A stretch of DNA of 64,000 bases from Bolinopsis microptera (Eukaryota; Ctenophora; Tentaculata; Lobata; Bolinopsidae): positions 20,360,494 to 20,424,493 of the forward strand of contig NC_087082.1 of assembly GCF_026151205.1 (NCBI RefSeq), given 5' to 3'. The first letter of the stretch is position 1, and every line of letters starts with the position of its first letter. The notes beneath the pieces are model-generated. The model was not told the origin of the DNA. It searched no databases and worked only from the letters and a program-made list of their open reading frames with translations. The position numbers and the translations under genes were made by a program. Shown piece after piece: positions 2,942-57,345 of this stretch.

Positions 2942-3123
2942 TACACGACGCAGTCCCACACGCTTTATTGCCTGGTAATGGAATTAGCTGAAGGGGGAGA
3001 GTTGCTGACATTCGTCAAGAACAACAACGAACACAAGCGTCTTGAGGAGGCAAAGGCGAGACCTTTCGTACGCCAACTCATATCAGCTCTATACTATCTT
3101 CATAGCAAGGGCATCGTTCACAG
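2942..3123 (+). CDS. HUNK-like serine/threonine kinase: hinge, helices D/E and HR of the catalytic loop
   Basis: After a CCAATTCCAG acceptor the frame reads LVMELAEGGELLTFVK (beta-5, hinge, helix D), then RLEEAKARPFVRQLISAL and YLHSKGIVH (helix E). This closely follows HUNK (RLEE, RQLISA, LH, VVHRD), a kinase related to AMPK. The exon ends in phase 2 inside the Arg codon of the HRD triad (AG|GTAACG), completed by A at the start of the next exon. The intron begins with a 36-bp array that repeats the last exon bases with the donor. The GVNMYAML motif downstream is the main reason to prefer HUNK over other AMPK-related kinases. Confidence 0.85.
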
Positions 3124-3360
3124 GTAACGTTAGATTTATGAAGGAGTAATCGTTCACAGGTAACGTTAGATTTATGAAGGAGTAATCGTTCACAGGTAAC
3201 GTTAGATTTATGAAGGAGTAATCGTTCACAGGTAACGTTAGATTTATGAAGGAGTAATCGTTCACAGGTAACGTTAGATTTATGAAGGAGTAATGCGTTC
3301 ACAGGTAACGTTAGATTTATGAAGGAGTAATCGTTCACAGGTAACGTTTAAAGATTTATG
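3124..3360 (+). repeat. 36-bp tandem array containing the 5' splice site
   Basis: Seven GTAACG donors occur at 36-bp spacing (3124, 3160, 3196, 3232, 3268, then about 3305 and 3341 after a 1-bp insertion). Each unit ends in CGTTCACAG, a copy of the last exon bases, so each unit recreates the exon end (CACAG|GTAACG). Reading past the first donor gives CAC AGG TAA, an immediate stop. Only the first donor yields kinase. Confidence 0.9.
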
Positions 3361-3888
3361 GATTCGTTGCAGGAATCAAACTGTTAAGTCCATAGTTTTA
3401 AGTTCCTGATTATTCTAAATTGAATCATTTAGATAAGTTAAATATTCCTGATCACTAAAATCTATGCAACAGTAATAGGGATACATTATAAGTTCTATTG
3501 TGATTAAGTCAAAAAAGAGAAAATTAGTCGGCAAATGATTTTAAAAGAGAGTTGGGATGGGGGGAGGAGGCAAAGGTACCTACAGTGTGTTTAGGCCTGT
3601 TATCTCAGATGATAGTAATATTTGCTGAATCAAGTGGTAAAATACGTAGATCGTTTTCTTATAGGATCGTTTATTGGTGGTGGTTCCCCAGAACTAATCA
3701 ATTATTCCGATGGTCTTATCAGCAGGTGGTTATGTGCCTTTCCTCGGTAGAATGTTCCGCGGTATTACAAACGCTGTCATTATGCATTTCTCTAGAGTTT
3801 CCAAAATAGTTGGAGAAAGACAGCACCCTAGCTCCGTCGTTACAGGGATAATTATGATTTGCCAATATTTGACCAAAGTTTACTTCAG

Positions 3889-3947
3889 AGATTTGAAGAT
3901 GGAAAACATCCTGCTCAACAAAAAGAAGACTGAAGTTAAAATAATCG
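3889..3947 (+). CDS. HUNK-like kinase: catalytic loop exon
   Basis: Acceptor TTACTTCAG. The first base completes Arg, giving HRDLKMEN, the catalytic loop with the base Asp, the Lys and the Mg-binding Asn. It continues ILLNKKKTEVKII and ends in phase 1 (ATC G|GTGAGT), so that Asp of DFG is split with the next exon. All residues expected of an active kinase are present. The DLKMEN form fits the SNF1/AMPK/HUNK group. Confidence 0.9.
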
Positions 3948-4382
3948 GTGAGTCATTTAATTGGCAAGTTTCTTCTCTCTTCGCCTCTATCCTTTTGGGT
4001 TTTATCGTTCTCTTTCTTCGATAATTGATCTTATCGTTTTTCTAAAGTTCAACGCAGCTCACGACTGATTATCACTCAGAGGACTGAGCCAAACACAATC
4101 ATTTAAATTCGAAGCAAAATAATCGAGAAAACAACTTGCTTTCAAATTTGAAATTTTGGAATATATGGTTCCGCGCTATTGAGAATGGAGATTGTGTTGT
4201 CAGTAAAATGGCATCAGATATAAAATACATACTGCATCTAAATATATCATCTATTTTTTCCCTCGGGCATAAATACTTTTTTTCAGTCAAATAGTCAGAT
4301 ATTACATCGGTTATCAGACTGTGGATTGTTTAATCCTGATTAGTCGTGTTTATAGTAAAACTTCATTTCTTATTGTGTCAGC

Positions 4383-4456
4383 GCCTTCCTGGCTCAGTTG
4401 GTTAGAGCGTCAGTCTCATAATCTGAAGGTCGTGAGTTCGAGCCTCACGGAGGGCA
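4383..4456 (+). tRNA. tRNA-Met (elongator, anticodon CAT)
   Basis: A 74-nt cloverleaf. The acceptor arm GCCTTCC pairs with GGAGGGC (one G-T wobble), with discriminator A at 4456. The D arm is GCTC/GAGC, the anticodon arm TCAGT-CTCATAA-TCTGA has anticodon CAT at 4417-4419, and the T arm is GTGAG-TTCGAGC-CTCAC. The anticodon arm is the one seen in animal elongator Met tRNAs, including the non-canonical T-T pair closing the loop. A-box (GGCTCAGTTGGTTAGAGC) and B-box (GTTCGAGCC) match pol III promoters. It is intronless and lies in the sense orientation inside a kinase intron. Confidence 0.93.
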
Positions 4457-5713
4457 TAGATTTTGTCCAATCACAAACAAGAATGGTTAATTTCTAGAAA
4501 GAGTTGAGAGGTTTCAAATCACTTTTATCTTCTATCCAATAAAACTTCACACTACCCCTGTCAAGATAAAGAATGTTTCATTAGCAAGTGAACCAATGTT
4601 CAGTCCAATATTCTCGTGTGTGATCGGGGAGATCAAATTGCCACGAATATGGTCGTAATAGCTCTAATTATAAGGTTAAGTATTGGAATCTTGCTCTTTC
4701 ACCCTCATTAGCATCATTATCCCTTAACTCGCTGTTCAAGTTTACTGATCCTATTTTTAGCACATTTTGATCACAAAGCAATAATTCTGAATGCCTGCAA
4801 CCGAAACCACGCCCTAAATATTCTAATTTCTTATCCTGTAACCTGGAACCACGATTTTGGTGACCCTAAAACCCGGTTCACGGTAAGTATGTATAGTCAA
4901 CCAATTTGCAGGTATCAGGCCGCCCAAACTTCTCGTAGAGCTGTTATTAACATATCGGTTGACTTGTCGTTACTTGTGTGCCAACTGGCACGTGAGCCAA
5001 ATAATAACCATGTAAGTTGAATATACCACGTATAAATATGGTAAACTGTTCAAGAGCCTCACTAATTACACTCGCATCTGCTTGTACAAGCAAATCATGA
5101 TGACCGTGGTGGATATTAATTGCACAGCCATTGGTCCAGGGGCCAATCGTCTACATTTAATCACGATTTGTAGTGTATGGAACGCGCGAAACTTATTTTA
5201 AAATGAAAATATGAAGCAACTCAGCGCCCAGTGTGACATGACGAGAAATTCTGTATTCGGACTATTGAAAGTCGTGTGCCCCATGAAATACTTTCGGATT
5301 CTGATATGATCCTTTTCTCTTCTTTGGGACACCTCATGCTGGTTGAATCACACCTATCTGATATATTTTGTTGATAAGACTGAGCTGAACGGATTTGTAT
5401 GCAAATCTGAAATCGGGCCAGATGTGCAGTGCGCGGCTTATAGGATTATAGTCCGTACTTTCACGTACTGGACGATTTGTAAACAAAGGATTGTTGAAAA
5501 TTGAAATTTGAAACTTGAACAGGGCAATGTCATAAAAAACCCTAGTTTATCAATCGTCACATCCATCAGGCATATGCGTTTCTAACCAAGGACTTGTTCG
5601 AGAGGAAAGATTCACCTAGCAGTACCGACCCACAGTAATCAGTATTTACTATTTAGGTACTACGCTATAAATTTGGGAGTCATGGCAACAGCACTCACCA
5701 AACACATCCCCAG

Positions 5714-5826
5714 ATTTTGGTTTGAGTAATCACCACGAGGTCGGAGAACTGTTGTCCACACATTGCGGCTCTCCAGAGTATGCTGCTCCGGAGTTATTTG
5801 TTGCTGGCCGACAGTACGGCGCTGAG
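5714..5826 (+). CDS. HUNK-like kinase: DFG and activation segment exon
   Basis: Acceptor CATCCCCAG. With the G carried over from the previous exon the frame reads [20 protein letters not shown], then PEYAAPEL. This gives the DFG motif, an activation loop with the [12 protein letters not shown] pattern typical of SNF1/AMPK/HUNK kinases (phosphorylatable Thr before CGSP) and the APE motif. It ends in phase 0 (GAG|GTTTGT). The segment between DFG and the phosphosite is short and differs from vertebrate HUNK. Confidence 0.9.
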
Positions 5827-6193
5827 GTTTGTCTTTTAACAAGTGCATTGTTGAGTGTGAGAGACGTTTTTTTTAAACACTTCTACTACTACTACTATGT
5901 CGGAACTAAGTCCGATCGACGCCAGATAACCCCCTCCATATATCCTTGTCCCACATCAGGGTTCGCAGTTCCTCTTTAGAGTTTGTCCCAACTTCCTTCA
6001 GTAACAGTTATAAAAATGGTGGGTTCTTTATCTGCCCCAATCCAGACTCCAGAGTCAGACCATCATGTCAAAACCTTCAGGCTAAATGAAATGAAATAAG
6101 TAAATTAAATGAGTAAATAGCTACAAGGATTACGTTCTGATCGAGCAATAACAATGAATAATGAATAATGTGTTACTGAAATTTCCCCTACAG

Positions 6194-6356
6194 GTTGACG
6201 TGTGGAGTTTAGGTGTGAACATGTACGCCATGTTAGTCGGTAAACTGCCCTTCAGATCCTCCCGGAACCACAGCAACCCCCGAGCCAAGCTCCTTCAACA
6301 GATATCAGCCGGGCTGGGCGCTCATCAGGAGGCTGATGCCGCTCATCTTCATCCCT
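6194..6356 (+). CDS. HUNK-like kinase: helix F to helix G exon
   Basis: Acceptor CCCCTACAG. The frame reads VDVWSLGVNMYAMLVGKLPF, matching HUNK's DVWSIGVNMYAML almost residue for residue; most related kinases have GVILY or GVVLY here, so this is the strongest family marker. The remainder (RSSRNHSNPRAKLLQQISAG) covers helix G and is divergent. It ends in phase 1 (CCC T|GTGAGT). The last roughly 25 bases of this exon with the donor are copied twice more in the intron. Confidence 0.9.
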
Positions 6357-6658
6357 GTGAGTATAATGTACTTCAGTACCAGGTAACCAGGTAACCAGGT
6401 AACCAGGTAACCAGGTAACCAGGTAACCAGGTAACCAGGTAACCAGGTAACCAGGTAACCAGGATGCCGCTCATCTTCAACCCTGTGAGTATGATGTACT
6501 TCAGTACCAGGTAACCAGGTAACCAGGTAACCAGGTAACCAGGTAACCAGGTAACCAGGTAACCAGGTAACCAGGTAACCAGGTAACCAGGTAACCAGGT
6601 AACCAGGTAACCAGGTAACCAGGTAACCAGGATGCCGCTCATCTTCATCCCTGTGAGT
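6336..6658 (+). repeat. Three copies of the exon end and donor, separated by (GTAACCAG)n
   Basis: GATGCCGCTCATCTTC...CCCT|GTGAGTAT occurs at about 6336, 6463 and 6630. Between the copies lie 8-bp (GTAACCAG)n blocks, about 10 and 16 units. Every 8-bp unit contains CAG|GTAAC, which is both a 3'-splice-site end and a donor. Reading past the first donor runs into TAA within the first 8-bp block. Confidence 0.9.
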
Positions 6659-6843
6659 ATCATGAGTTTTTGGAGAAGGAGGTTGGGTTTCAAAAATAAA
6701 TTGAATGGTTTATCAGGAATTTGGATGCTTATTACATGATTGCTCATTAATTTAAAGCTTATCTTCCATTATTATATTTCATATCTGAGGTTTACACACC
6801 ATTCTTTTCTGAAGAGTAACAACTGATAAAGATCCTATTTCAG

Positions 6844-6998
6844 CGTGTCTAAATCTGATAAAAGGGATGTTACAACCAGACCCCTGTAAAAGGCTGAAGC
6901 TGACTGCTGTAATGCAACACCCGTGGGTTACGAACAAGGGAACGTGGCCTCTTTACCCTTACATTACCCCCAAGTGTAATGATGCCTTAGAAAAACAG
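6844..6998 (+). CDS. HUNK-like kinase: end of C-lobe
   Basis: Acceptor CTATTTCAG. With T from the previous exon the frame reads SCLNLIKGMLQPDPCKRLKL, then TAVMQHPWVTN. This is the helix H/I region with the DP..R motif and the HPW of the last kinase-domain helix, matching HUNK (LLEPDPVKRP, RWLNEN). The tail (KGTWPLYPYITPKCNDALEK) leads into the UBA-like exon. It ends in phase 0 (CAG|GTAGGT). About 85 bp of its 3' part with the donor are duplicated at 7062-7146. Confidence 0.9.
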
Positions 6999-7015
6999 GT
7001 AGGTCACTTCAGTAC

Positions 7016-7150
7016 CAGGTAACCAGGTAACCAGGTAACCAGGTAACCAGGTAACCAGGTTGCCATGGGTAACGAACAAGGGAACGTGGCCTCTTTACCC
7101 TTACATTACCCCCAAGTGTAATGATGCCTTAGAAAAACAGGTAGGTCATT
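7016..7150 (+). repeat. (GTAACCAG)n block and partial duplicate of the preceding exon with its donor
   Basis: Five GTAACCAG units (7016-7060) are followed by a copy of the preceding exon's last 85 bp or so, identical from AACGAACAAGG onward and ending CAG|GTAGGTCA (7062-7146). The copy has CAGGTTGCCATGGGTAACG where the exon has CCGTGGGTTACG, so it is a partial exon duplication with an AG close upstream and an intact donor. It could in principle act as a duplicated exon. Confidence 0.85.
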
Positions 7151-7405
7151 ATAGGAGGGCAGTTTTGTTCAACAACATAAACTGTGTTTGTGCTGGGCAT
7201 TTTTCGGCTTTTTCAAATCTCTTTGAAATAAAATTTGTCAAAATCTCTCGTTAAAAAATAAACTTTGTCAATATTACCCGTAAAAAATTTGTCAAAAACT
7301 CTCGTTAAAAATAAAATTTGTCAGACTTTGCCGGGGGTCCCTCCAAACATCTCAGATCAAATAATCACGCACTCTCCCGATCCCACCTAAACCCCCTTTT
7401 GCCAG

Positions 7406-7552
7406 GTAATACACCAGATGTCACGACTGCTAAAAGTCAACCAGTCTGACATTAAACGAGCTATAGACGAGAACAGGCTGGACTGGATATCAGCTATTTA
7501 TCATCTGTTGATGCGGGACAAAGAACAACACCTCGCTGCTAAAGTTTCCAAC
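7406..7552 (+). CDS. HUNK-like kinase: UBA-like helical segment
   Basis: Acceptor TTTTGCCAG, phase 0-0, 49 codons. It reads VIHQMSRLLKVNQSDIKRAI and then AIYHLLMRDKEQHL. HUNK has, directly after its kinase domain, a similar segment (helix, a few residues, DVI, then ILAIYFLL). AMPK-related kinases commonly carry a UBA or UBA-like autoregulatory domain at this position. The AIYHLL motif is the clearest shared element. Its role in regulation is inferred from the family. Confidence 0.8.
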
Positions 7553-7736
7553 GTAAGTTATTTGGGTTACGTGGTTAATCAATAATCATCTGTCATTTTA
7601 AAATTCATGACTCGACACAAACAAATTTTTCTTATCTCACCGATATTGAAGAGTGGAAGTTGTTGATAACCTACAGTACTTAGTCATCTGATAACAAGCT
7701 TCGAACACTTCTAGAATCTCAAATAACCCCCTCACA

Positions 7737-8876
7737 TCCCCTCAGTTCCACGACCCCTCACTAACCCCTCGGTTCCCCGACCCCTCACTAACCCATCACC
7801 TCTTTACAACATCATCCCCAGCTGAAGACGATTTACACATGTATTTTGAAAGCTCCTGCTAAAACAAACTTTTCGTATCACTTATATGTTTTAAATAATC
7901 CCCATCCAGTCTCCAGACTAACCCATCAGTTCAACGACCCCTCACTAGCCCCTCAGTTCCCCGACCCCTCACTAACCCATCAGTTCAACGACCCCTCACT
8001 AACCCCTCAGTTACCCGACCCCTCACAAACCCCTCAGTTCCCCGACCCCCCACTAACCCATCAGTTCCATAACCCCTCACTCACCCCTCAGTTCCCCGAC
8101 CCCTCACTAACCCATCAGTTCCCCGACACCTCACTAACCCCTCAGTTCCCCGACACCTCACTAACCCCTCAGTTCCCCGACCCCTCACTAACCCCTCAGT
8201 TCCTCGACCCCTCACTAACCCCTCAGTTCACCGACCCCTCACCGACCCCTCAGTTCCCCGACCCCTCATTAACCCTCGTTCCCCGACCCCTCACTAACCC
8301 CTCACATCCCAGACCCCTCACTAACCCCTCACATCCCCGACCCCTCACTAACCCCTCCGTTCCCCGACCCCTCACTAACCCCTCAGTTCCCCGACCCCGC
8401 ACTAACCCCTCAGTTCCCCGACCCCGCACTAACCCCTCAGTTCCACGACCCCTCACTAACCCCTCAGTTCCCCGACCCCCCACTAACCCATCAGTTCCAT
8501 AACCCCTCACTCACCCCTCAGTTCCCCGACCTCTCTCTAACCCCCCGTTCCCCGACCCCTCACTAACCCCTCACATCCCCGACCCCTCACTAACTCCTCC
8601 GTTCCCCGACCCCTCACTAACCCCTCAGTTCCCCGACCCCGCACTAACCCTCAGTTCCCCGACCCCGCACTAACCCCTCAGTTCCCCGACCCCTCACTAA
8701 CCCCTCCGTTCCCCGACTCCTCACTAACCCCTCCGTTCCCCGACCCCTCACTAACCCCTCAGTTCCCCGACCCCTCACTAACCCCTCAGTTCCCCGACCC
8801 CTCACTAACCCCTCACTTCCCCGACCCCTCACTAACCCCTCCATTCCCCGACCCCTCACTAACCCCTCACATCCCA
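7737..8876. repeat. 27-bp pyrimidine-rich minisatellite abutting a 3' splice site
   Basis: About 40 imperfect 27-bp units (core CCCCTCACTAACCCCTCAG plus TTCCCCGA) run up to the AG at 8876-8877. They form an extended pyrimidine tract. Some units end CATCCCAG|AC, the same as the true acceptor (for example near 8305). The unit also contains CTAAC, a good branch-point core. The long frames on both strands (PDPSLTPQF repeats; GRGTEGLVR repeats) are repeat by-products. Confidence 0.9.
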
Positions 8877-8877
8877 G

Positions 8878-9017
8878 ACCTCGCTGAGTGGTGAGATGAC
8901 GGAGAGTACGAGTGGAGTGGGGACCTCTATTGCAGACGAGCAGGAGTCCAAGACAATAGAGCAGATCACAGCACTCACCCTGAACGGCAGACACAGCTCC
9001 CCTGCTACTCCTCTAAT
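8878..9017 (+). CDS. HUNK-like kinase: start of disordered tail
   Basis: Acceptor CATCCCAG, phase 0 start, phase 2 end (CTA AT|GTAAGT). It reads TSLSGEMTESTSGVGTSIAD and ends LNGRHSSPATPLM, a Ser/Thr-rich, probably unstructured linker after the UBA-like segment. The exon's last 28 bases form part of the 43-bp unit of the huge downstream array. Reading past the donor gives CTA ATG TAA, a stop. Confidence 0.75.
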
Positions 9018-12000
9018 GTAAGTTTATTTAGAGACACAGCTCCCCTGCTACTCCTCTAATGTAAGTTTAGTTAGAGACACAGCTCCCCTGCTACTCCTCT
9101 AATGTAAGTTTATTTAGAGACACAGCTCCCCTGCTACTCCTCTAATGTAAGTTTAGTTAGAGACACAGCTCCCCTGCTACTCCTCTAATGTAAGTTTATT
9201 TAGAGACACAGCTCCCCTGCTACTCCTCTAATGTAAGTTTAGTTAGAGACACAGCTCCCCTGCTACTCCTCTAATGTAAGTTTAGTTAGAGACACAGCTC
9301 CCCTGCTACTCCTCTAATGTAAGTTTAGTTAGAGACACAGCTCCCCTGCTACTCCTCTAATGTAAGTTTAGTTAGAGACACAGCTCCCCTGCTACTCCTC
9401 TAATGTAAGTTTAGTTAGAGACACAGCTCCCCTGCTACTCCTCTAATGTAAGTTTATTTAGAGACACAGCTCCCCTGCTACTCCTCTAATGTAAGTTTAT
9501 TTAGAGACACAGCTTCCCTGCTACTCCTCTAATGTAAGTTTATTTAGAGACACAGCTCCCCTGCTACTCCTCTAATGTAAGTTTATTTAGAGACACAGCT
9601 CCCCTGCTACTCCCCTAATGTAAGTTTAGTTAGAGACACAGCTCCCCTGCTACTCCTCTAATGTAAGTTTATTTAGAGACACAGCTCCCCTGCTACTCCT
9701 CTAATGTAAGTTTAGTTAGAGACACAGCTCCCCTGCTACTCCTCTAATGTAAGTTTAGTTGGAGACACAGCTCCCCTGCTACTCCTCTAATGTAAGTTTA
9801 TTTAGAGACACAGCTCCCCTGCTACTCCTCTAATGTAAGTTTATTTAGAGACACAGCTCCCCTGCTACTCCTCTAATGTAAGTTTATTTAGAGACACAGC
9901 TCCCCTGCTACTCCTCTAATGTAAGTTTATTTAGAGACACAGCTCCCCTGCTACTCCTCTAATGTAAGTTTATTTAGAGACACAGCTCCCCTGCTACTCC
10001 TCTAATGTAAGTTTATTTAGAGACACAGCTCCCCTGCTACTCCCCTAATGTAAGTTTAGTTAGAGACACAGCTCCCCTGCTACTCCTCTAATGTAAGTTT
10101 ATTTAGAGACACAGCTCCCCTGCTACTCCTCTAATGTAAGTTTATTTAGAGACACAGCTCCCCTGCTACTCCTCTAATGTAAGTTTAGTTGGAGACACAG
10201 CTCCCCTGCTACTCCTCTAATGTAAGTTTATTTAGAGACACAGCTCCCCTGCTACTCCTCTAATGTAAGTTTAGTTGGAGACACAGCTCCCCTGCTACTC
10301 CTCTAATGTAAGTTTATTTAGAGACACAGCTCCCCTGCTACTCCTCTAATGTAAGTTTATTTAGAGACACAGCTCCCCTGCTACTCCTCTAATGTAAGTT
10401 TATTTAGAGACACAGCTCCCCTGCTACTCCTCTAATGTAAGTTTATTTAGAGACACAGCTCCCCTGCTACTCCTCTAATGTAAGTTTATTTAGAGACACA
10501 GCTCCCCTGCTACTCCTCTAATGTAAGTTTATTTAGAGACACAGCTCCCCTGCTACTCCTCTAATGTAAGTTTATTTAGAGACACAGCTCCCCTGCTACT
10601 CCTCTAATGTAAGTTTATTTAGAGACACAGCTCCCCTGCTACTCCTCTAATGTAAGTTTATTTAGAGACACAGCTCCCCTGCTACTCCTCTAATGTAAGT
10701 TTAGTTAGAGACACAGCTCCCCTGCTACTCCTCTAATGTAAGTTTATTTAGAGACACAGCTCCCCTGCTACTCCTCTAATGTAAGTTTAGTTAGAGACAC
10801 AGCTCCCCTGCTACTCCTCTAATGTAAGTTTATTTAGAGACACAGCTCCCCTGCTACTCCTCTAATGTAAGTTTAGTTAGAGACACAGCTCCCCTGCTAC
10901 TCCTCTAATGTAAGTTTAGTTAGAGACACAGCTCCCCTGCTACTCCTCTAATGTAAGTTTATTTAGAGACACAGCTCCCCTGCTACTCCTCTAATGTAAG
11001 TTTAGTTAGAGACACAGCTCCCCTGCTACTCCTCTAATGTAAGTTTAGTTAGAGACACAGCTCCCCTGCTACTCCTCTAATGTAAGTTTAGTTAGAGACA
11101 CAGCTCCCCTGCTACTCCTCTAATGTAAGTTTAGTTAGAGACACAGCTCCCCTGCTACTCCTCTAATGTAAGTTTATTTAGAGACACAGCTCCCCTGCTA
11201 CTCCTCTAATGTAAGTTTAGTTGGAGACACAGCTCCCCTGCTACTCCTCTAATGTAAGTTTATTTAGAGACACAGCTCCCCTGCTACTCCTCTAATGTAA
11301 GTTTATTTAGAGACACAGCTCCCCTGCTACTCCTCTAATGTAAGTTTATTTAGAGACACAGCTCCCCTGCTACTCCTCTAATGTAAGTTTAGTTAGAGAC
11401 AAAGCTCCCCTGCTACTCCTCTAATGTAAGTTTAGTTAGAGACACAGCTCCCCTGCTACTCCTCTAATGTAAGTTTAGTTAGAGACACAGCTCCCCTGCT
11501 ACTCCTCTAATGTAAGTTTATTTAGAGACACAGCTCCCCTGCTACTCCTCTAATGTAAGTTTATTTAGAGACACAGCTCCCCTGCTACTCCTCTAATGTA
11601 AGTTTAGTTGGAGACACAGCTCCCCTGCTACTCCTCTAATGTAAGTTTATTTAGAGACACAGCTCCCCTGCTACTCCTCTAATGTAAGTTTATTTAGAGA
11701 CACAGCTCCCCTGCTACTCCTCTAATGTAAGTTTATTTAGAGACACAGCTCCCCTGCTACTCCTCTAATGTAAGTTTATTTAGAGACACAGCTCCCCTGC
11801 TACTCCTCTAATGTAAGTTTATTTAGAGACACAGCTCCCCTGCTACTCCTCTAATGTAAGTTTATTTAGAGACACAGCTCCCCTGCTACTCCTCTAATGT
11901 AAGTTTATTTAGAGACACAGCTCCCCTGCTACTCCTCTAATGTAAGTTTATTTAGAGACACAGCTCCCCTGCTACTCCTCTAATGTAAGTTTATTTAGAG

Positions 12001-19483: not shown

Positions 19484-19617
19484 GATTTTCAGCTCTTTTG
19501 AAATAGTTGCTGTTGTTTCAGCGTAAATCGAGTCGGTTGTCAATGAGCTGAATTATTTAATGGTATATTTTCAGGAGTAACACTAGGAACACTAGTTATA
19601 TAATGGTATATTTTCAG
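19484..19617 (+). other. Intron end with duplicated 3' splice site
   Basis: The segment TGGTATATTTTCAGGAGTAA occurs twice, with the AG at 19573-19574 and again at 19616-19617. Only the second copy continues into the coding exon (ACCGATCAACC). After the first the frame reads MSNTRNTSYIMVYFQE and stays open, so use of the first acceptor would add about 43 bases and shift the frame. Confidence 0.7.
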
Positions 19618-19710
19618 GAGTAACACTAACCGATCAACCACAAAACCAACTTCCGCTAAAACACCCCCCGCAAGTAAACAGAACAGTAACACCAGCAGTC
19701 CTGTAACACT
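19618..19710 (+). CDS. HUNK-like kinase tail exon (Thr/Ser/Asn-rich)
   Basis: Phase 2-2 exon of 93 bases. AT from the previous exon plus G gives Met, then SNTNRSTTKPTSAKTPPASK and QNSNTSSPVTL. It is low-complexity and basic/Thr-rich, with no recognised domain. The donor is ACACT|GTGAGT. Its 3' half with the donor is copied twice more in the intron. The assignment rests on phase matching on both sides. Confidence 0.65.
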
Positions 19711-20266: not shown

Positions 20267-20388
20267 AGTTAATAATTTAATTAAAATATGGTCACTACCA
20301 GTTACCAGTAACCAGTTACCATACTATATGAAAACTTGACTTTCTGATATTGACGACTGAAATTACTCGACTTACTCACAAATTTCAG

Positions 20389-28756: not shown

Positions 28757-28779
28757 GTAGTGTATAATGGAGCAAGACT

Positions 28780-48329: not shown

Positions 48330-48458
48330 ATTGCACGAACACAGAGTACACGGAGGTAGCGAGTAAGCAGTGTTCCAGATACCAGGTTAAGATTAATGGG
48401 GTCTGCAAGGACCCGCTCTGTAAGAAGGGCTACTTCCTCAAAGACAACTACTGTCACA
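48330..48458 (+). CDS. R-spondin-like secreted protein: first furin-like Cys repeat
   Basis: Acceptor TTGTTCTCAG, phase 1 at both ends. G completes Asp, then CTNTEYTEVASKQCSRYQVK and INGVCKDPLCKKGYFLKDNY. The Cys spacing fits furin-like repeats of the R-spondin type (here GVCKDPLCKKGYF). It is the first recognisable exon; a 5' exon with the signal peptide must lie upstream. Confidence 0.75.
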
Positions 48459-48784
48459 GTAAGTTAATATATTACATTTGTCTGTTTACTTGTTTAAGAG
48501 GCTAAATATGTTCATATCATCAATTAACTAATTAACTGTTTCGCTAAAACAGAAACTTATTTTTATAGAAAACAAAAGAAATTTATTGAAACTAAGATTA
48601 GATATGAAATCCAAAACTTATGACAAATTGAAAACGTAAAAAACATTACATCAAAAATTCCATCGTCGTTGTACGTATATTTGTATAGGCTTCTAAGTGT
48701 TACAATAGCATAGTAACAATGCATTTGTTGCTACATATTCTCCGCCACATACTATACGCTATAACATTAACTGATCATTCTCCC

Positions 48785-48836
48785 GCGCGTAACTACTAGT
48801 TACCATAGTTACACTACTAGTTACCATAGTTACTGT
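48785..48836. repeat. ACTAGTTACCATAGTTAC repeat before a 3' splice site
   Basis: Two to three units of the reverse complement of the GTAACTATG/ACTAGTAGT family end four bases before the TTTCAG acceptor at 48836-48841. The same motif family occurs at 19.7 and 33.7 kb. Confidence 0.75.
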
Positions 48837-48841
48837 TTCAG

Positions 48842-49015
48842 GATGCCACTTCTCCTGCAAGAGCTGTATTGCGTATGACGTGTGCGACTCCTGCGCGGGG
48901 ACCCGGTCTCTGCACGGCGGCACGTGCCATTCCAAGTGCCCTAGGAAACACCGGTCAACATACTCTGACAGCACACTTGGAATTAAGATCTGCACTAAAA
49001 GGAAGCACCTTCAAG
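48842..49015 (+). CDS. R-spondin-like protein: second furin-like Cys repeat
   Basis: Acceptor ACTGTTTCAG, phase 1-1. It reads RCHFSCKSCIAYDVCDSCAG, then TRSLHGGTCHSKCPRKHRST. The pattern C-x3-C-x2-C-x5-C-x2-C-x10-C-x3-CP is that of the furin-like domain; in R-spondins this domain pair binds LGR and ZNRF3/RNF43 and enhances Wnt signalling. Binding here is inferred only. The end is taken at TTCAAG|GTTTGT, an unusual donor also used twice in the kinase gene. Confidence 0.8.
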
Positions 49016-50455
49016 GTTTGTTTTTCTTTCATTTTTTAAAGATAACTACCTAGTTTATTTTTTTACTACTTAAGATTGGCAGTTGTTGTAAAAGTTAGCT
49101 CTCACAGTATTATAACACAGTAGGTACAGGTGTAAAGGTCATCTTCTCATCAAAATCTTGAAACATTTCATTCTTTCAGTAGTCCCAATTATCGTCCAAC
49201 TCAACGAAGTTTAATAATCTACGGATATTTATAGTACTTTTAGATTTTAGATTTCAATTTTCAAACATTGTGAGATTACTTAGGCACTAAAATTGTTATT
49301 CCTTGGAAAATTTTGTATTTTTTGAAGGCCGTTAAGGCATTTGACCCAGTCAAAAAAGTTTCAGTTTTATATCTTTTACGGTTTTTGCGGAACGTCGTGT
49401 TAAAGTTGATGCCGTGGTGTCGGTAAAATGGTACGGATATATATATATACATATATGCCTATATATATCGTATCGCTTTATGTATAGTTAGATTCTCAGA
49501 TATTATCCCAGGCGTGTTCAATTATTCAAAGATCATGTAAAGATATAAATACTTGAATTTGTTTATAAATTAAATGCGAACGTGTTGCATAATTATGGTC
49601 AATAATGATTTAGTTCTATTATCGATCTAGATATCCGCAATAAGTAATCCCCGGAAATTAGTTTGGAAATATATTTCCTGTGGTTGGTAGCCTGTTAGTG
49701 CCCAGTATTACCATCCCAAAGACTCTGAAAGTATGTCAGAGGAGCTCGAATTGAGGAGATTAGAATATTTTCCTATTGAAGCTGGGTAAAAGTAATGCTG
49801 AGCTGATCGTATAGTCAAGAGTTGATCAAAAAAAACATCAAACAGTCTCCATTTGTCATTTGATGGCTGCTCCCCTCAATTACCATCTCCCCGGACGTGT
49901 CTACTCCGCACAACTGTACAACTACCCGAACTTGTCTCGGTCCCTTCAAAAGTTTCCTCTTTTCCTCCTGGTCTCCTTCTTTCTCCGTCCCGGTCCCTTC
50001 CCGGTCCCTCTCCCCCGGTCCCTCCTGGTATGAAAGAAGGAGCCGGCATCATCATCCGGCACCCGACTGTTTTTATCGTTGCAGCTAATGTTCACAGTCC
50101 TCTATTTGGCTCATCCCGTGACTTACAAGCCTGCAACCTTTTACTAACAGTACCAGGACTAGGCCTGGGAGACATGACGCACTGCACTTATTGTGATGAT
50201 GTAGTTATTATCATCTCCCTCCTTCAACCCTCTCTTTTTGTCCTTCTCTTCTCCCTTGATCATGTGACCATGATCATGTAACCCTTTTAACCAGGGGGGC
50301 TACGTGCCCTTTTAACGTGAGTGAAATACTGCAACTCTGTCTCTTAGCTCTCACAACCGAGCTTTTTATCTCAAACTTTTCATGTTTACGGTATGGAGCC
50401 AGGGTGTGGCTACACATGGTTAAAACATTTCATTCTCATTACATTATACTGATGT

Positions 50456-50748
50456 ATTCTGGGTAAAATTATCTTTATCCCGGTTGTTGCGACAAGTAAA
50501 AATGCTCTTATTAGGGAAAGGAGATTACTCGATGTTTCAATGTAACTACATCGTATTCATGATCTCAAATTATTTGTTATATAGTAGTGTTGAAAGTATT
50601 AAAAAGTTGAAAGTATTAAAAAGTAGTTACATTGAAACATCGAGTAATCTCCTTTCCCTAATAAGAGCATTTTTACTTGTCGCAACAACCGGGATAAAGA
50701 TAATTTTACCCAGAATACATTACAACAATGCGACTCATAAATAATACT
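50456..50748. mobile_element. Hairpin element, copy 1, with 12-bp target-site duplication
   Basis: Two nearly perfect arms of about 95 bp (from GTATTCTGGGTAAAATTATC, about 50455-50550, and its inverse, about 50628-50723) flank a short middle. After the right arm comes a roughly 46-bp unpaired tail ending CCGGATTTTAC. ACATTATACTGA stands on both sides (about 50442-50453 and 50763-50774 region), read as a target-site duplication. A second copy at 56.15 kb shares the sequence but not the flanks. There is no coding capacity. Confidence 0.75.
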
Positions 50749-52349
50749 CCAATCCGGATTTTACACATTATACTGAGATACAATAAATTATGCAATCATA
50801 AGATTATACTCAATAAAATATATTTAATCACAGAATCTTAGATATTTACTAGTGCGCTCATCTCTGTGGAGATATTCTCTCATCATATCTTATATTAGTG
50901 TTATAGTGTAGCAGGAGTACCTCCTCCTCCTCCTCCTCCTCCTCCTCCTTCTTCTTTCATCTCCCTTAGTGTGGATATATTCTCTCATCCCTGTTTATAT
51001 ATCAGAGATATTGCCTCATTCCCTCTAAGTATTAAGATAGTGACGTAATATTTGATAACATGTAATAATCGTTATTATCCTATATCAACCTAGATTCCTC
51101 AAGATTCCACAAAATGACACCCGCGGTACAAGGAATATCTGCTTTTCAGAACTAAGGTTCCGCATCTCGGAGTTTGTCGTTGTACAGGTCCTGTTATTTC
51201 CGTGTCTGAACTAACAGGACCTGAAGGATGAATTACTATTCATAGGATGACGCGACTCCAGGTGGGGAGGGAATACACAACGCACTTGTAGACAATGCTT
51301 CATTTGTGTACTCGAGCTTTATTGGATTAAGTTGTATAGCCAGGGGAGCTCCAAATTCCCTTGTAAATAATCAATTATATGGTGTCTCGCCAGTCCAATC
51401 ATGAGATGCAGTAATGGAAATAATATCCTATTAAAGCAGCCCTCCACTAATCAGGTATGTGACATAGCACAAATTGTAATATCTCGACTCTCCGGTCCTA
51501 AGTATGATTTGTGTTGTAAATGGAGGAATTTTATGCAGTAGCGTATGGTATCGTGGTTTGGAAAATATGGTTTAGCTCATTGAAAGTCTGTTCTGCATAC
51601 CAAGGAATTTAGATGGAAGTTAGAACGCTGGTTCCGAGCCAAAAAGTGAGCGGTCTGTAACGATTTGTAACGGTCTATGATGGTCTGTAATCTACTTACT
51701 TATTTAGAAGTGGCAGCACTACTCAGAAGTTAGAAGTGGCCGTATATGCAGTAGCAGCACTGCTGTTTTTACGGATATTTCGCAGTGAGGGTAACACTGG
51801 AAGGGTTTGTAAGATATTACAAAGGAGTAAGCCCTACTTGTTCCGCCTAATTATATCTTTACTTTACAGTTCCGGCTAATTACGTCCACCCACCAATTTA
51901 CACTATAATATTCAATATTCCTGTCTTCTCCTCCCTTTGTCCTCCTCCCTTTGACTAGCAGTCTCTTGTTTTCTCTCTTGTTCTCTTCCTCAGAACGATG
52001 TACTCGTAATCTGTAAATAATATTAAATTGCAACGATATTTACGCTAAGTAGACTTTTCGAGGAAGCCTTGGTCTGAGAATTTACAGGATTCTTTTTATC
52101 TCGTAATGGGATAGACTTGCAATGAAAATTATGGTAGTAGGGACTGATAGAGACTATAAATAAAGTTAGTGATGTTTACGTAACTATTAGTCACTGTTAG
52201 TTTCGAATTCCAGTACACATTTAACTTCTACAATAATTAGTGTATAAATTTTGCCGCCCATCAAAGATATCCATATCGCACAGACAAGGAGCTCGTTTTT
52301 CACCGAAGATGACGTCGTACAAATAAAAGTAACTAAGCACTTAAGTTAA

Positions 52350-52412
52350 GTGTTTTTAGAGAATTTACTCTCGTTAAGTGACTTAACGAGAGTAAATTCT
52401 CTAAAAACACTC
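52350..52412. repeat. Perfect 31-bp palindrome with a 1-nt centre
   Basis: 52350-52380 and 52382-52412 are exact reverse complements (arms start AGTGTTTTTAGAGAATTTAC), separated only by G52381. The near-absence of a loop is unusual for a stable genomic sequence. It could be an element end, a recent inverted duplication or an assembly artefact. Confidence 0.85.
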
Positions 52413-53089
52413 GAGATATTCAATTATTGTCCTTGACATGACGCTGTATCAACAAATCAAACAATTAATTAAATATTAATTAAATAATCTGCATTCTCTT
52501 GCAGTTAGTACCCCCCGAGCGTGAATCTCATGACAAACAGATTATTGTCCGGCTATTTCCAAGCATCTTGTTTTAACTTTGAACTGACAGTTTATAGTAA
52601 TATAAGATGCCTTAATTAAGCTAGAAGATTTAATAAAGTTTCGTCATACTCGGTGCGGCTAATGGTAATAAACAATCGCCCAAAATTTAACAAATTGTAT
52701 TAATACTCAGTGAGCACTCTCTCGTTAGTACTCTGCTATTTCCGATCAAAGTCAGAAGTATAATCTAACTAGCATCACAAGCCTGCCTGTCCCTGACGGA
52801 CGCGGTATATTATTGTATTATGGGTTATTTATATATTATTATGATGAGCGTTAGCTGACGTTGAGTATGAAATCGTTAAGTCGGTTATGATGGTGTTAAG
52901 CCGAAGTAGTCCCAAGATAATCCAGTGTAGAATGTTAAGATTGATGGTGAAAACTTAAAAATGACATTATATATAAATTTTGACATAACAGTTTCTAAAA
53001 ATATAATTTCTATCTACCTCATCCACTCATTGCTCAAATATCAGTTCCTGTTGACCTCTATTTGTCACGTGACCAGCTCTATATTCCAG

Positions 53090-53245
53090 ATACCAGATGT
53101 GAGGTGGGAGAGTGGGACCAGTGGACAGAGTGCGGGAGAATTGGTGGACCTAATGTCAGAACCAGGACCAGGACAGTTGGAAAGGGACCTTCTTGTGTTG
53201 GCATCGCGCCAATTCAGCACAGACATTGTCTTTCTCTAGGATTTG
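53090..53245 (+). CDS. R-spondin-like protein: TSP1 repeat 1
   Basis: Acceptor ATATTCCAG, phase 1-1. It reads DTRCEVGEWDQWTECGRIGG, then PNVRTRTRTVGKGPSCVG. It shows the TSP1 signature with C, W-x2-W (EWDQW) and an Arg ladder (RTRTRT) for CWR-type stacking; the third W is replaced. TSP1 repeats in R-spondins bind heparan sulfate. Confidence 0.85.
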
Positions 53246-53445
53246 GTAAGTTTTGAGCTGAAGTTTTTATGATAATATGTTTACTAATACTCTAGTCTCT
53301 AATTATACTACGTGATTGCAATGTTCTGTGAAACACGGACAATTTTATTTTGTTATTTTCGCTTTTCAAACTTCGTTCAGTTACAGCTTCTGAAAGCTGA
53401 TGAATCTCATTATGGATAATTAATAAACACGAGTTACCCTAATAC

Positions 53446-53838
53446 TGTAACACACTGCAACACACTGTAACACACTGTAACACACTGTAACACACTGCTA
53501 CACACTGCAACACACTGCAACACACTGTTACACACTGTTACACACTGTAATACACTGCAACATACTGTAACACACTGCAACACACTGCAACACACTGTAA
53601 CACACTGTAACACACTGTGACACACTGTAACACACTGTAACACACTGTAACACACTGTAACACACTGCAACACATTGTAACACACTGTAAAACACACTGT
53701 AAAACACACTGTAACACACTGTAACACACTGTAACACACTGTAACACACTGTAACACACTGCAACACACTGTAACACACTGTAACACACTGTAACACACT
53801 GTAACACACTGCAACACACTGTAACACACTGTAACACC
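53446..53838. repeat. 10-bp CACACTGTAA array abutting a 3' splice site
   Basis: About 39 units (CACACTGTAA, variants GCAA, GTTA, GCTA) end five bases before the CCTACAG acceptor at 53837-53843. The array occupies the end of the intron 53246-53843. CTGTAAC may supply branch-point-like A residues. The VLQCVTVCYS frames are by-products. Confidence 0.9.
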
Positions 53839-53843
53839 TACAG

Positions 53844-54044
53844 CGAGTGACTTAGCAGCGTGCGTTGTATCAGAGTGGTTACCATGGGAACAATGCGACT
53901 CGTCCTGTGAGAACAAGTTCAGGAGAAGGCGGAGGATCCTGGAGACTCCACCTGATGGAATGAGGAAGAAGAGAGCTCTGTGTCCGAACCTTGTGGAGGA
54001 GGAACCCTGCCCTTGTTACTTTCAGAACCAGGCATCTGTCAACG
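53844..54044 (+). CDS. R-spondin-like protein: TSP1 repeat 2
   Basis: Acceptor CACCTACAG, phase 1-1. It reads ASDLAACVVSEWLPWEQCDS, then SCENKFRRRRRILETPPDG and CPNLVEEEPCPC. It has the W-x2-W motif (EWLPW), the CDSSC pair and an Arg-rich strand (FRRRRRIL) typical of TSP1 domains that bind glycosaminoglycans. Donor AACG|GTAAGT. Confidence 0.9.
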
Positions 54045-54239
54045 GTAAGTTGTGGTAGTTAATTAATTGATGAATTATCTAATTATTGATTAGTGGTAAT
54101 TTATTAATTGATTAATTAATTAGTGAGTATTGTTCTCATCTTTATTACATTTAATTTACTTTCTTCTCTCAATTCTAGAGCCAAGTCTAAGAACTATATC
54201 ATTTATTACCAACAAATGATTTATTATTAATAATGCTCA

Positions 54240-55785
54240 AGTTATACTAAATACCTGTAACATGTTGATTGTTACAGAGTTGAGTCAGTGTGAGATGGGG
54301 GAGTGTTATACTAAATACCTGTAACATGTTGATTGTTACAGAGTTGAGTCAGTGTGAGATGGGGGAGTGTTATATTAAATACCTGTAACATGTTGATTGT
54401 TACAGAGTTGAGTCAGTGTGAGATGGGGGAGTGTTATATTAAATACCTGATTGTTACAGAGTTGAGTCAGTGTGAGATGGGGGAGTGTTATATTAAATAA
54501 CACGTTGATTGTTACAGAGTTGAGTCAGTGTGAGATGGGGGAGTGTTATATTAAATAACACGTTGATTGTTACAGAGTTGAGTCAGTGTGAGATGGGGGA
54601 GTGTTATATTAAATACCTGATTGTTACAGAGTTGAGTCAGTGTGAGATGGGGGAGTGTTATACTAAATACCTGTAACATGTTGATTGTTACAGAGTTGAG
54701 TCAGTGTGAGATGGGGGAGTGTTATATTAAATACCTGTAACATGTTGATTGTTACAGAGTTGAGTCAGTGTGAGATGGGGGAGTGTTATATTAAATACCT
54801 GATTGTTACAGAGTTGAGTCAGTGTGAGATGGGGGAGTGTTATACTAAATACCTGTAACATGTTGATTGTTACAGAGTTGAGTCAGTGTGAGATGGGGGA
54901 GTGTTATATTAAATACCTGTAACATGTTGATTGTTACAGAGTTGAGTCAGTGTGAGATGGGGGAGTGTTATATTAAATACCTGATTGTTACAGAGTTGAG
55001 TCAGTGTGAGATGGGGGAGTGTTATACTAAATACCTGTAACATGTTGATTGTTACAGAGTTGAGTCAGTGTGAGATGGGGGAGTGTTATACTAAATACCT
55101 GTAACATGTTGATTGTTACAGAGTTGAGTCAGTGTGAGATGGGGGAGTGTTATATTAAATACCTGATTGTTACAGAGTTGAGTCAGTGTGAGATATGGGA
55201 GTGTTAGATTAAATACCTGTAACATGTTGATTGTTACAGAGTTGAGTCAGTGTGAGATGGGGGAGTGTTATATTAAATACCTGTAACATGTTGATTGTTA
55301 CAGAGTTGAGTCAGTGTGAGATGGGGGAGTGTTATATTAAATACCTGATTGTTACAGAGTTGAGTCAGTGTGAGATGGGGGAGTGTTATACTAAATACCT
55401 GTAACATGTTGATTGTTACAGAGTTGAGTCAGTGTGAGATGGGGGAGTGTTATATTAAATACCTGTAACATGTTGATTGTTACAGAGTTGAGTCAGTGTG
55501 AGATGGGGGAGTGTTATATTAAATACCTGTAACATGTTGATTGTTACAGAGTTGAGTCAGTGTGAGATGGGGGAGTGTTATATTAAATACCTGATTGTTA
55601 CAGAGTTGAGTCAGTGTGAGATGGGGGAGTGTTATACTAAATACCTGTAACATGTTGATTGTTACAGAGTTGAGTCAGTGTGAGATGGGGGAGTGTTATA
55701 TTAAATACCTGATTGTTACAGAGTTGAGTCAGTGTGAGATGGGGGAGTGTTATATTAAATACCTGTAACACGTTGATTGTTACAG
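54240..55785 (+). repeat. About 25 extra copies of a 3' splice site with the first exon bases
   Basis: Units of 64, 58 or 54 bp, each with GATTGTTACAG|AGTTGAGTCAGT followed by GTGAGATGGGGGAGTG, match the start of the true exon at 55786. The three lengths differ by a segment before the acceptor (CCTGTAACATGTTGATTG versus CCTGATTG). The true copy is last and reads AGTTGGGTCAG. Entering at an earlier copy meets TAA in the following 64-bp unit, so only the last acceptor gives full-length protein. Confidence 0.95.
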
Positions 55786-55950
55786 AGTTGGGTCAGTGTG
55801 AGATGGGAGAGTGGACACCCTGGTCAGACTGTGACGCACCCTGTAACCAGGGGACCATGAAGAGGACCAAGTCACCGGAGGGTCCTCAGTACTCACCAGG
55901 CTGCAGAACCTTCACTGAGACCAGACCCTGTTGTCAGCAGACATGTCAAG
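55786..55950 (+). CDS. R-spondin-like protein: TSP1 repeat 3
   Basis: Acceptor TTGTTACAG (last of about 26), phase 1-1. It reads ELGQCEMGEWTPWSDCDAPC, then NQGTMKRTKSPEGPQYSPGC and RPCCQQTCQ. It is a classic TSP1 with W-x2-W (EWTPWSDC); R-spondins share CEMSEWSPW. Donor CAAG|GTACTG. Confidence 0.92.
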
Positions 55951-55964
55951 GTACTGAACCTTTT

Positions 55965-56125
55965 TAGTGTTTTGTAGCGTTATTGTAGCGTTTTTGTAGC
56001 GTTTTGTAGTGTTTTTGTAGTGATTTGTAGCGTTTTGTAGCGTTATTGTAGCGTTTTTGTAGCGTTTTGTAGTGTTTTTGTAGTGTTTTGTAGCGTTTTG
56101 TAGTGTTTTGTAGTGTTTTTAGTGT
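55965..56125. repeat. GTAGCGTTTTGTAGTGTTTT repeat at the start of an intron
   Basis: Irregular 10-16-bp units (TTTTGTAGCG, TTTTGTAGTG) begin 15 bases after the donor at 55951. They do not copy exon bases. Confidence 0.85.
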
Positions 56126-56148
56126 CTTTGAAATGACTTAGTGTATTC

Positions 56149-56371
56149 TGTGTAAAATTATCTTTATCCCGGTTGTTGCGACAAGTGAAAATGCTCTTAT
56201 TAGGGAAAGGAGTTTACTCGACGTTTCAATGTAACTACATCGTATTCATGATCTCAAATTATTTGTTATATAGTAGTGTTGAAAGTATTAAAACCGGGAT
56301 AAAGATAATTTTACACAGAATACATTACAACAATGCGACTCATAAATAATACTCCAATCCGGATTTTACAA
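56149..56371. mobile_element. Hairpin element, copy 2, internally deleted, with 11-13-bp target-site duplication
   Basis: Same sequence as the element at 50.46 kb: GTGTAAAATTATCTTTATCC at the left and ACTCCAATCCGGATTTTAC at the right. Part of the right arm is missing (the middle passes directly from GAAAGTATTAAA to CCGGGATAAAG). AAATGACTTAG(TG) flanks both ends (about 56136-56148 and 56370-56382). Two copies in introns of one gene with different flanks show that it is mobile. Confidence 0.8.
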
Positions 56372-56408
56372 ATGACTTAGTGGTATGTTTCAAATGTGTG
56401 TGTTTCAG

Positions 56409-56582
56409 ATTACTGTTCGGGAACACTACTAGGAGACTGGTCTAGCTGGGGGAAGTGTGAGGGCACCTGTGAGCACAGTACTCGCCGCAGAGTCAGGAGC
56501 AATCTCTTCCCTTCCGTTCTCATGTTCTGCGAGCTACACCAGCTCTACATGGAGATACCCTGTAAAAAGAGGGGCTGCAAAG
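56409..56582 (+). CDS. R-spondin-like protein: TSP1 repeat 4
   Basis: Acceptor GTGTTTCAG, phase 1-1. It reads DYCSGTLLGDWSSWGKCEGT, then CEHSTRRRVRSNLFPSVLMF and IPCKKRGCK. W-x2-W (DWSSWGKC) and TRRRVR are TSP1 marks; the second half is less typical. Donor AAAG|GTTAGC. Confidence 0.88.
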
Positions 56583-57345
56583 GTTAGCTTTATCTGTTGT
56601 TAGTTTTATCACACTGTTGTTAGTTTTATCACACTGTTGTTAGTTTTATCACACTGTTGTTAGTTTTATCTGTTGTTAGTTTTATCTGTTGTTAGTTTTA
56701 TCACACTGTTGTTAGTTTTTATCACACTGTTGTTAGTTTTATCACACTGTTGTTAGTTTTATCACACTGTTGTTAGTTTTTATCGCACTGTTGTTAGTTT
56801 TATCTGTCGTTAGTTTTACCTGTTGTTAGTTTTATCACATTGTTGTTAGTTTTATCTGTCGTTAGTTTTACCTGTTGTTAGTTTTATCACATTGTTGTTA
56901 GTTTTATCACACTGTTGTTAGTTTTATCACACTGTTGTTAGTTTTATCACACTGTTGTTAGTTTTATCACACTGTTGTTAGTTTTATCACACTGTTGTTA
57001 GTTTTATCTGTTGTTAGTTTTATCTGTTGTTAGTTTTATCACACTGTTGTTAGTTTTTATCGCACTGTTGTTAGTTTTATCTGTCGTTAGTTTTACCTGT
57101 TGTTAGTTTTATCACATTGTTGTTAGTTTTATTTGTCGTTAGTTTTACCTGTTGTTAGTTTTATCACATTGTTGTTAGTTTTATCACACTGTTGTTAGTT
57201 TTATCACACTGTTGTTAGTTTTATCACACTGTTGTTAGTTTTATCACATTGTTGTTAGTTTTATCACACTGTTGTTAGTTTTATCACAATGTTGTTAGTT
57301 TTATCACACTGTTGTTAGTTTTATCACACTGTTGTTAGTTTTGTC
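56583..57345. repeat. 20-bp TTAGTTTTATCACACTGTTG array starting at the donor
   Basis: About 40 units of 13 or 20 bp (GTTAGTTTTATCTGTT or GTTAGTTTTATCACACTGTT) run from the first intron bases (GTTAGCTTTATC) on. Every unit starts GTTAG, a weak donor-like core, but no exon bases are included. Confidence 0.93.

Follow-up and report, generated by a model that had tools for sequence, protein, structure and literature searches.

Background

Tandem duplications covering an exon-intron boundary have been named 'mirages' in the amphioxus gene Adh3, were described again in the globin genes BflGb6 and BflGb9 and have been noted in TnC and PGBD5; as far as the accessible text of these reports goes, splicing was undisturbed and the copy number unstable (PMC3087553, PMC3902484). 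The present study concerns a stretch of 64,000 nucleotides from the ctenophore Bolinopsis microptera (C11:20,360,494-20,424,493, hereafter the window), in which tandem arrays lie at the splice sites of most introns in two genes, one coding for a kinase and one for a protein with thrombospondin-1 domains (TSP1). The contig is 20.83 Mb long, in a genome of 264.65 Mb and 232 contigs, and the window is situated 0.40 Mb from its end.

The accessible accounts of the amphioxus mirages describe either intron end being affected, a variable unit length and splice signals present in many copies, and the same is found here. In the window the unit spans the exon-intron boundary at 3113, 8989, 30158 and 54241, as it also does at 6/276 junctions in genes sampled blind to arrays; both 5' and 3' boundaries are affected in window and sample alike, and splice signals are retained in many copies. 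The original prediction, made from the letters of the window, knew of no named system of this kind, but the mirages are a precedent; the arrays of the window are largely explained and form a new occurrence of a phenomenon known from amphioxus. We propose, with a probability of about 0.7, that these are mirage-type minisatellites arising from duplication or insertion that is blind to position, filtered by selection on the coding sequence and buffered by splicing.

Results

Tandem arrays at the splice junctions of the window

Both genes were modelled by joining exons at GT-AG sites with the reading frame kept open.

2942..34037, plus strand: AMPK-related (MARK/SIK/HUNK-like) Ser/Thr kinase gene, 17 exons and 16 introns modelled, 5' end beyond the model.
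48330..57674, plus strand: TSP1 gene, 7 exons and 6 introns modelled.

The spliced open frame of the kinase gene runs through 16 GT-AG introns and gives 1,217 residues and a stop; the protein contains Pkinase (E=1.9e-53) and UBA_SIK3 (E=3.1e-10) and matches MARK3 (E=6.3e-43), its likeness to HUNK being our presumption. For the TSP1 gene the corresponding frame consists of 375 residues and a stop, with six introns, all GT-AG, and TSP1_spondin was identified in five stretches (E=1.3e-23).

Tandem Repeats Finder (TRF), used throughout with a score of 50 as array threshold, returned 69 rows for the window, which merged into 45 arrays with a total of 23,117 bp (36%). An array was found within 21 bp of a splice site in 14/22 introns, nine of 16 in the kinase gene and five of six in the TSP1 gene. 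With exact gene models this bears out the prediction that most introns of the two genes have arrays at their splice sites; TRF likewise confirmed the arrays and their unit sizes, and the units differ from each other with their position in common, as had been noticed.

Three arrangements could be distinguished at the junctions. In form A the unit crosses the junction (36 bp at 3113, 43 bp at 8989, 42 bp at 30158 and ~64 bp at 54241), in form B a dispersed GTAAC-type minisatellite lies between copies of the junction (6336-6664, 6924-7148, 19663-20266 and 23119-23738), and in form C the array only abuts the splice site (8877, 28757, 33977, 48841, 53843, 55951 and 56583). Two kinds of unit are involved: one is local DNA of the junction, the other belongs to dispersed families that contain GTAAC and match the genome at hundreds to thousands of places. 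The arrays and duplicated junctions are as follows.

3113..3348, plus strand: 36-bp unit, 6.5 copies, with an 11-bp exon end and donor 3124; seven copies of CACAG|GTAACG.
6336..6664, plus strand: three copies (6336, 6464, 6632) of a 33-bp exon end with donor 6357, (ACCAGGTA)n arrays between them.
6924..7148, plus strand: 83-bp exon end with donor 6999, duplicated, flanking a short (ACCAGGTA)n array at 7014-7060.
7728..8880, plus strand: 27-bp pyrimidine-rich arrays, the second (7917-8880) ending on acceptor 8877.
8989..19483, plus strand: 43-bp unit, 244 copies, a 29-bp exon end followed by GTAAGTTTATTTAG from donor 9018.
19560..19640, plus strand: duplicated acceptor, read by eye; the copy in frame is 19617.
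19663..20266, plus strand: three copies of an exon end with donor 19711, 51-bp flank match, (TGTAACTATGGTAACTAGTAG)n between copies.
23119..23738, plus strand: 67-bp acceptor and exon-start segment, duplicated, flanking (ACCTAGTA)60; the acceptor in frame is 23684.
28777..29322, plus strand: 30-bp array beginning 20 bp inside donor 28757.
30158..33266, plus strand: 42-bp unit, 74 copies, with an 18-bp exon end and donor 30176.
33683..33836, plus strand: 21-bp array in an intron interior, 22-nt duplicated flanks; insertion type away from a junction.
33909..33975, plus strand: 32-bp unit, 2.1 copies, stopping 2 bp short of acceptor 33977.
48792..48833, plus strand: two copies of the 21-bp family also found at 33683-33836 (in its minus-strand sense), 8 bp from acceptor 48841.
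53444..53837, plus strand: 10-bp array stopping 6 bp short of acceptor 53843.
54241..55813, plus strand: 26 copies of an acceptor and exon-start unit, reaching 28 bp into the exon.
55961..56120, plus strand: 10-bp array beginning 10 bp inside donor 55951.
56583..57346, plus strand: 20-bp array beginning on donor 56583.

As a correction to the prediction, in which the arrays contain or directly touch a splice site, no more than five of them enter the exon (by 11, 29, 18, 28 and 3 bp); in four further introns the array lies between duplicated junctions, and in the remaining five of the 14 it abuts the site. Its donors 3124, 6357, 6999, 9018 and 19711 are exact intron starts; the sixth is 30176, and the position 30167 given for it is an in-frame alternative. 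Among its acceptors 8877, 53843 and 55785 (the last with array 54241-55813) were recovered with arrays, and those at 19.57 and 23.13 kb proved to be upstream copies of the in-frame acceptors 19617 and 23684. Missing from its list were an array close to donor 28757, those of acceptors 33977 and 48841, and those of donors 55951 and 56583, although 56583 falls inside the stretch that it covers.

The kinase introns also hold a tRNA-Met gene (4383-4456, within the second modelled intron), a rhodopsin-type receptor in a single frame on the minus strand (24648-25640), antisense to the kinase gene, and, in the intron 23784-27819, a large inverted-repeat element (26000-27310) whose arms were long and near-identical by eye. 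A reverse-transcriptase frame is present in the window as well.

Splice signals and reading frames inside the arrays

Splice signals are kept across the array copies: GTAAGT in 243/243 copies of the 43-bp array, seven CACAGGTAACG, 26 acceptor copies, and 71 AAGGTGAG in the 74-unit array. Decoy splice signals are thus not purged from the arrays. All 22 introns, 16 in the kinase gene and six in the TSP1 gene, leave open frames when the exon-proximal splice copies are joined. In the 36- and 43-bp arrays the frame meets stop codons once a second donor copy is included, and in the 64-bp array 25/26 acceptor copies run into a stop, the last copy alone staying open. The exception is the 42-bp donor array, which continues the frame of the kinase exon without a stop to 33316, so that an internal donor in 30158-33266, if used, would give a protein longer by n x 14 residues (ASQVSKVSYFLCVF). 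Among identical competing splice sites the exon-proximal ones tend to win, an advantage that fits the open frames of the window introns. The exon-proximal copies are the probable sites of splicing as judged from the reading frames.

An assembly artefact, or a collapsed or expanded repeat, is hardly to be expected as the source of the arrays. Of the units in the 43-bp array of the window, 242 measure exactly 43 bp and one measures 42, with variants interspersed, and junction arrays occur at several independent loci. What speaks for an artefact is a single listed match of the 43-bp unit outside the array, at C8:4874750-4875450 (4.875 Mb), a read-like and indel-rich copy with 47 gap positions against 19 mismatches over 452 bp and with no listed kinase match, which looks like an unpolished gap fill. 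The patch itself, however, suggests raw reads that contain the array. The same stretch was considered as an array-free kinase paralog and rejected, since it is an indel-rich array with no listed kinase match (38/1201 candidates scored). We judge it to be an unpolished long-read patch, in which case assembly errors around such arrays would indeed occur.

Array positions compared with chance

Distances from arrays to splice sites were compared with two null models, one with uniform placement in introns from which the arrays had been removed and one in which blocks were also allowed to straddle a junction. Of the 23 arrays in contact with an intron in the window, 14 are no farther than 20 bp from a junction, where uniform placement predicts 3.2 (p<0.00002); those that touch or cross a junction number six, against 4.1 under the straddling null, which is not significant (p=0.18).

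As the window had been picked for its striking look, further genes were sampled by exon positions, blind to arrays. The 63 loci comprise 16 myosin stretches, 33 kinesin, chaperonin, adaptin and aminoacyl-tRNA synthetase loci, and 14 dynein loci. The choice fell on loci with several exons packed closely, and so the sample is biased against long arrays; two kinesin pairs were also taken as recent duplicates. Of the matches, 62/73 were used for myosin (nine on C9 and two on C3 being omitted), 102/109 for kinesin, 45/75 for chaperonin, synthetase and adaptin together, and 62/67 for dynein. The first sample contained 167 neighbouring exon pairs, of which 53 were skipped (query gap >12 residues), two had no splice solution and nine scored below 5, leaving 103 introns; the dynein sample contained 48 pairs, with 12 skipped and one low, leaving 35 and a pooled total of 138 introns.

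The pooled introns have 18 of 73 arrays at 20 bp or less from a junction, with 7.0 expected under uniform placement (p<0.00005). Here and below, paired expectations are given for the uniform and the straddling null, in that order. The first sample alone gave 15/62 (5.8 and 9.6 expected; p=0.0001 and 0.023), and the dynein sample alone 3/11 (1.2 and 1.95 expected; p=0.09 and 0.28), not significant. Arrays touching or crossing a junction number seven in the pooled set, against 0.3 (p<0.00005) and 5.7 (p=0.34). Junction contacts were divided into ten at donors and eight at acceptors, and the six sampled junctions spanned by an array reaching at least 8 bp into the exon belong to unrelated genes. 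When set against chance in this way, the proximity of arrays to splice sites stressed by the original prediction is retained as a modest excess of array edges near junctions, at most 1.7-2.6-fold in the blind sample, with no clear excess over the straddling null of arrays touching or crossing them.

Local duplication of 40-bp segments

A second measure, of greater weight for the mechanism, was applied to the same 138 introns: 40-bp segments at set positions relative to a junction were scored for local duplicates; positions 80 bp inside were taken from the 104 introns of at least 160 bp and exon positions 60 bp from the junction. Local duplicates were found for 8/276 segments centred on junctions (donors 6/138, acceptors 2/138), 14/208 segments 80 bp inside introns (6/104 and 8/104 for the two intron ends), 26/312 mid-intron segments and 0/276 exon segments. 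The junction-centred and exon rates differ (p=0.007). In the window the corresponding counts are 10/44 at junctions, 13/44 at 80 bp inside and 3/44 in exons. In agreement with this, TRF arrays in the first 49 loci made up 1.0% of the exon-matched bases and 12.7% of all bases.

Duplicates absent from exons of the sample and present at junctions and in introns are what blind duplication, followed by loss of exon-damaging events, predicts. According to this mechanism ordinary tandem duplication and repair-type insertion, encountered throughout the introns of the sample, would strike DNA regardless of position; a duplication wholly within an exon would break the protein and be lost, and one across a splice junction would leave an intact junction beside the exon, its extra copies becoming intron, and would probably be near-neutral provided that the exon-proximal copy is used. 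The original prediction had offered selection that tolerates duplication only at exon-intron junctions as one explanation. The tolerance fits these data, but the restriction to junctions is wrong, duplicates being at least as common inside introns (14/208 vs 8/276).

Array birth and the insertion form

To trace how arrays begin, three recently duplicated gene pairs were aligned. In the myosin paralogs L014 and L015, whose aligned blocks are 90.5-98.0% identical, a segment that runs from the intron through the acceptor TTTCTTTCAG and into the exon is single in L014 but repeated in tandem in L015, as three copies of 69, 72 and 72 bp. At the single-copy locus CAACTATTTC is found at either end of the segment, the footprint expected from duplication between short repeats. 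The exon behind this acceptor gives a joined peptide that matches myosin head positions 156-200 gap-free (E=2.1e-9), which is evidence that the exon at the end of the segment is a genuine one. Further large differences between the paralog pairs are due to four inserts with inverted ends, one in L022 (1041-1971), two in L014 and one in L041, the last within a 3.5-kb difference (824-4352); some of them carry short arrays of their own, and they are probably DNA transposons or MITE-like elements.

A different origin is suggested for form B. At both 6357 and 6999 the last copy of the junction leads directly into the remaining intron, which indicates that the minisatellite was inserted with a target duplication and not amplified in place. 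A scan for duplicated flanks was performed on 112 arrays of at least 50 bp in the window and the first 49 loci together with 111 control positions, and gave six hits, four of them junction duplications (33, 51, 67 and 77 bp), against 0/111 for the controls. The 77-bp duplication is in a kinesin gene on C12 and includes the acceptor. The two further hits, both in L041, were rejected as motifs repeated inside one insert. A fifth flank duplication, the 83 bp at 6999, surrounds an array below the size cut of the scan, and a sixth case, at 33683-33836, has 22-nt flank copies and lies inside an intron. The arrays at 6378 and 7014 have a common leader, ACTTCAGTACCAGG, which suggests that one was copied from the other.

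The first duplication could hence come about by two routes, either between short direct repeats, as shown once in the myosin pair, or by insertion of a dispersed GTAAC-type minisatellite together with a 33-83 bp duplication of the junction, presumably through a repair pathway. Once tandem, the copy number would rise by slippage or unequal exchange, as the near-identical units suggest.

It could also be argued that the arrays are scars of intron birth, left when an exon segment bearing AGGT was duplicated or an intron-making element inserted. Such a model was proposed by the authors of the amphioxus globin study, as far as its accessible text goes (PMC3087553). AG and GT signals are present in the junction arrays, and in myosin and kinesin the intron position is common to the paralog in 2/12 array-contact introns against 24/64 others, a difference in the expected direction that is not significant (Fisher p=0.20). 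On the other hand, a direct repeat between donor and acceptor (score at least 12) was found in 0/160 introns, with 0.1 expected by shuffling; at 6357 and 6999 other intron sequence runs from the last junction copy to an unrelated acceptor; and the acceptor exists in both myosin paralogs with the array in one only. Intron gain by tandem AGGT duplication was rejected, as donor and acceptor are not copies of one sequence, and intron birth in general is considered highly improbable.

Chromosome ends and repeat families

Minisatellites are generally concentrated near chromosome ends. The sampled loci closer than 1 Mb to an end (six loci at five places, 33.7 kb) are 45.5% tandem repeat, compared with 9.4%, 9.9%, 8.5% and 5.7% in the bins farther in (63 sampled loci overall). 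This accounts for the extreme look of the window, which is situated 0.4 Mb from a chromosome end. Array density would thus be highest where the window sits. Junction contact is also found in the interior, with 13/60 arrays against 4.4 and 7.1 expected; within 1 Mb of the ends the figures are 5/13 against 2.6 and 3.7.

The 21-bp filler family TAGTAGTGTAACTATGGTAAC has 660 exact double-unit matches genome-wide and, among the matches listed, all but one on C1 are situated at 0.04-0.93 Mb and those on C2 at 1.9-3.4 kb, a distribution that could mark it as a subtelomeric satellite. Four-unit matches to the 8-bp family ACCAGGTA number 3,877 genome-wide. In one myosin gene of the sample (L007, gene-oriented 4319-6263) an intron of ~1.94 kb is almost entirely a single (CAAGTAAC)n array (4359-6250), the non-array remainder being ~40 bp at the 5' end and 14 bp at the 3' end.

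A tentative extension, which we regard as possible but doubtful, is that chromosome-end satellites invade genes through breaks at exon borders, healed by copying of GTAAC-type minisatellites (e.g. CAG|GTAAC) with 33-83 bp of fill-in. If so, splicing would act as a buffer and the genome would accumulate repair scars at exon borders at a rate set by the distance to the chromosome end.

Discussion

Several observations weigh against an origin that is blind to position. Under the straddling null the proximity of arrays to junctions is still in excess, with 6.4 expected for the 14/23 arrays of the window (p=0.0003) and 10.8 for the 18/73 of the pooled sample (p=0.007), and in the pooled sample this excess sits in arrays close to junctions, not across them; what is left of it could reflect some preference or an effect of splice-site composition. 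In five of the six insertion-type cases the duplicated flank contains the junction. When both rates are taken from the same 104 introns, local duplicates are less frequent at junctions than inside introns (8/208 vs 14/208), but not significantly so (p=0.27), so that a gradient is shown only for exons against the rest. Finally, the contrast at chromosome ends comes from six loci at five places, and distance taken as a rank is not significant (Spearman rho -0.19, p=0.13).

Some of these points would be expected from a mutational process with a preference for exon-intron junctions, such as co-transcriptional breakage, or repair, in the vicinity of splice sites; a process duplicating DNA across these junctions was also envisaged by the original prediction. 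The edge excess, 1.7-2.6-fold in the blind sample and 2.2-4.3-fold in the window at 20 bp, and the junction included in 5/6 insertion-type duplications are in its favour. Nevertheless, duplicated segments do not reach a higher frequency at junctions (8/276) than at positions 80 bp into introns (14/208) or in mid-intron (26/312), arrays touching or crossing junctions show no clear excess (7 vs 5.7), the dynein subset is not significant, and the similar contacts at donors and acceptors (10 vs 8) indicate that no single splice signal is favoured. We therefore find such a process unlikely, and it is not required by the near-junction counts (18/73 vs 7.0 or 10.8). Mirage-type arrays arising by blind duplication or insertion, with coding selection as the filter and splicing as the buffer, remain the preferred explanation.

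Boundary minisatellites are not peculiar to amphioxus, as they recur in the ctenophores, a phylum placed close to the base of the animal tree or at it, and would indicate a general rule by which splicing allows genomes to bear duplications extending into exons. The arrays would also serve as a countable natural experiment in how a splice site is chosen when up to 244 donors are nearly identical, and in how introns become longer without transposons.

Comparison with known systems

In the parts of the open-licence literature covered here no report of boundary minisatellites in ctenophores was found, and 'tandem repeat' and 'minisatellite' are absent from the accessible main text of a paper on ctenophore chromatin loops (PMC12221973). 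Intron gain by AGGT duplication, as presented in the accessible text of PMC3443670, shares with the present arrays a tandem duplication of AG/GT made harmless by splicing, but here existing introns are lengthened and repeats joining donor and acceptor are absent (0/160). The repair of staggered double-strand breaks in Daphnia, described in the same text, resembles form B in that inserted DNA has direct-repeat flanks from fill-in, and the inserts of the present study are flanked by target direct repeats (33, 51, 67 and 77 bp, and 83 bp at 6999); unlike the Daphnia case the flanks are 33-83 bp, include an existing splice site in 5/6 cases and surround a minisatellite. Subtelomeric minisatellites of human and other genomes, as far as covered by the accessible text of PMC3486850, are likewise near chromosome ends, but the arrays described here lie in genes and reach exon edges.

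The closest likeness is that to the amphioxus mirages, which in the accessible accounts are named for a handful of genes only. From these the present arrays differ in belonging to another phylum, in being far longer (244 and 74 units), in having dispersed GTAAC minisatellites between junction copies and in their concentration towards chromosome ends. Novelty in the ctenophore may lie in the scale of the phenomenon, in its concentration at chromosome ends and in the form where dispersed minisatellites are inserted.

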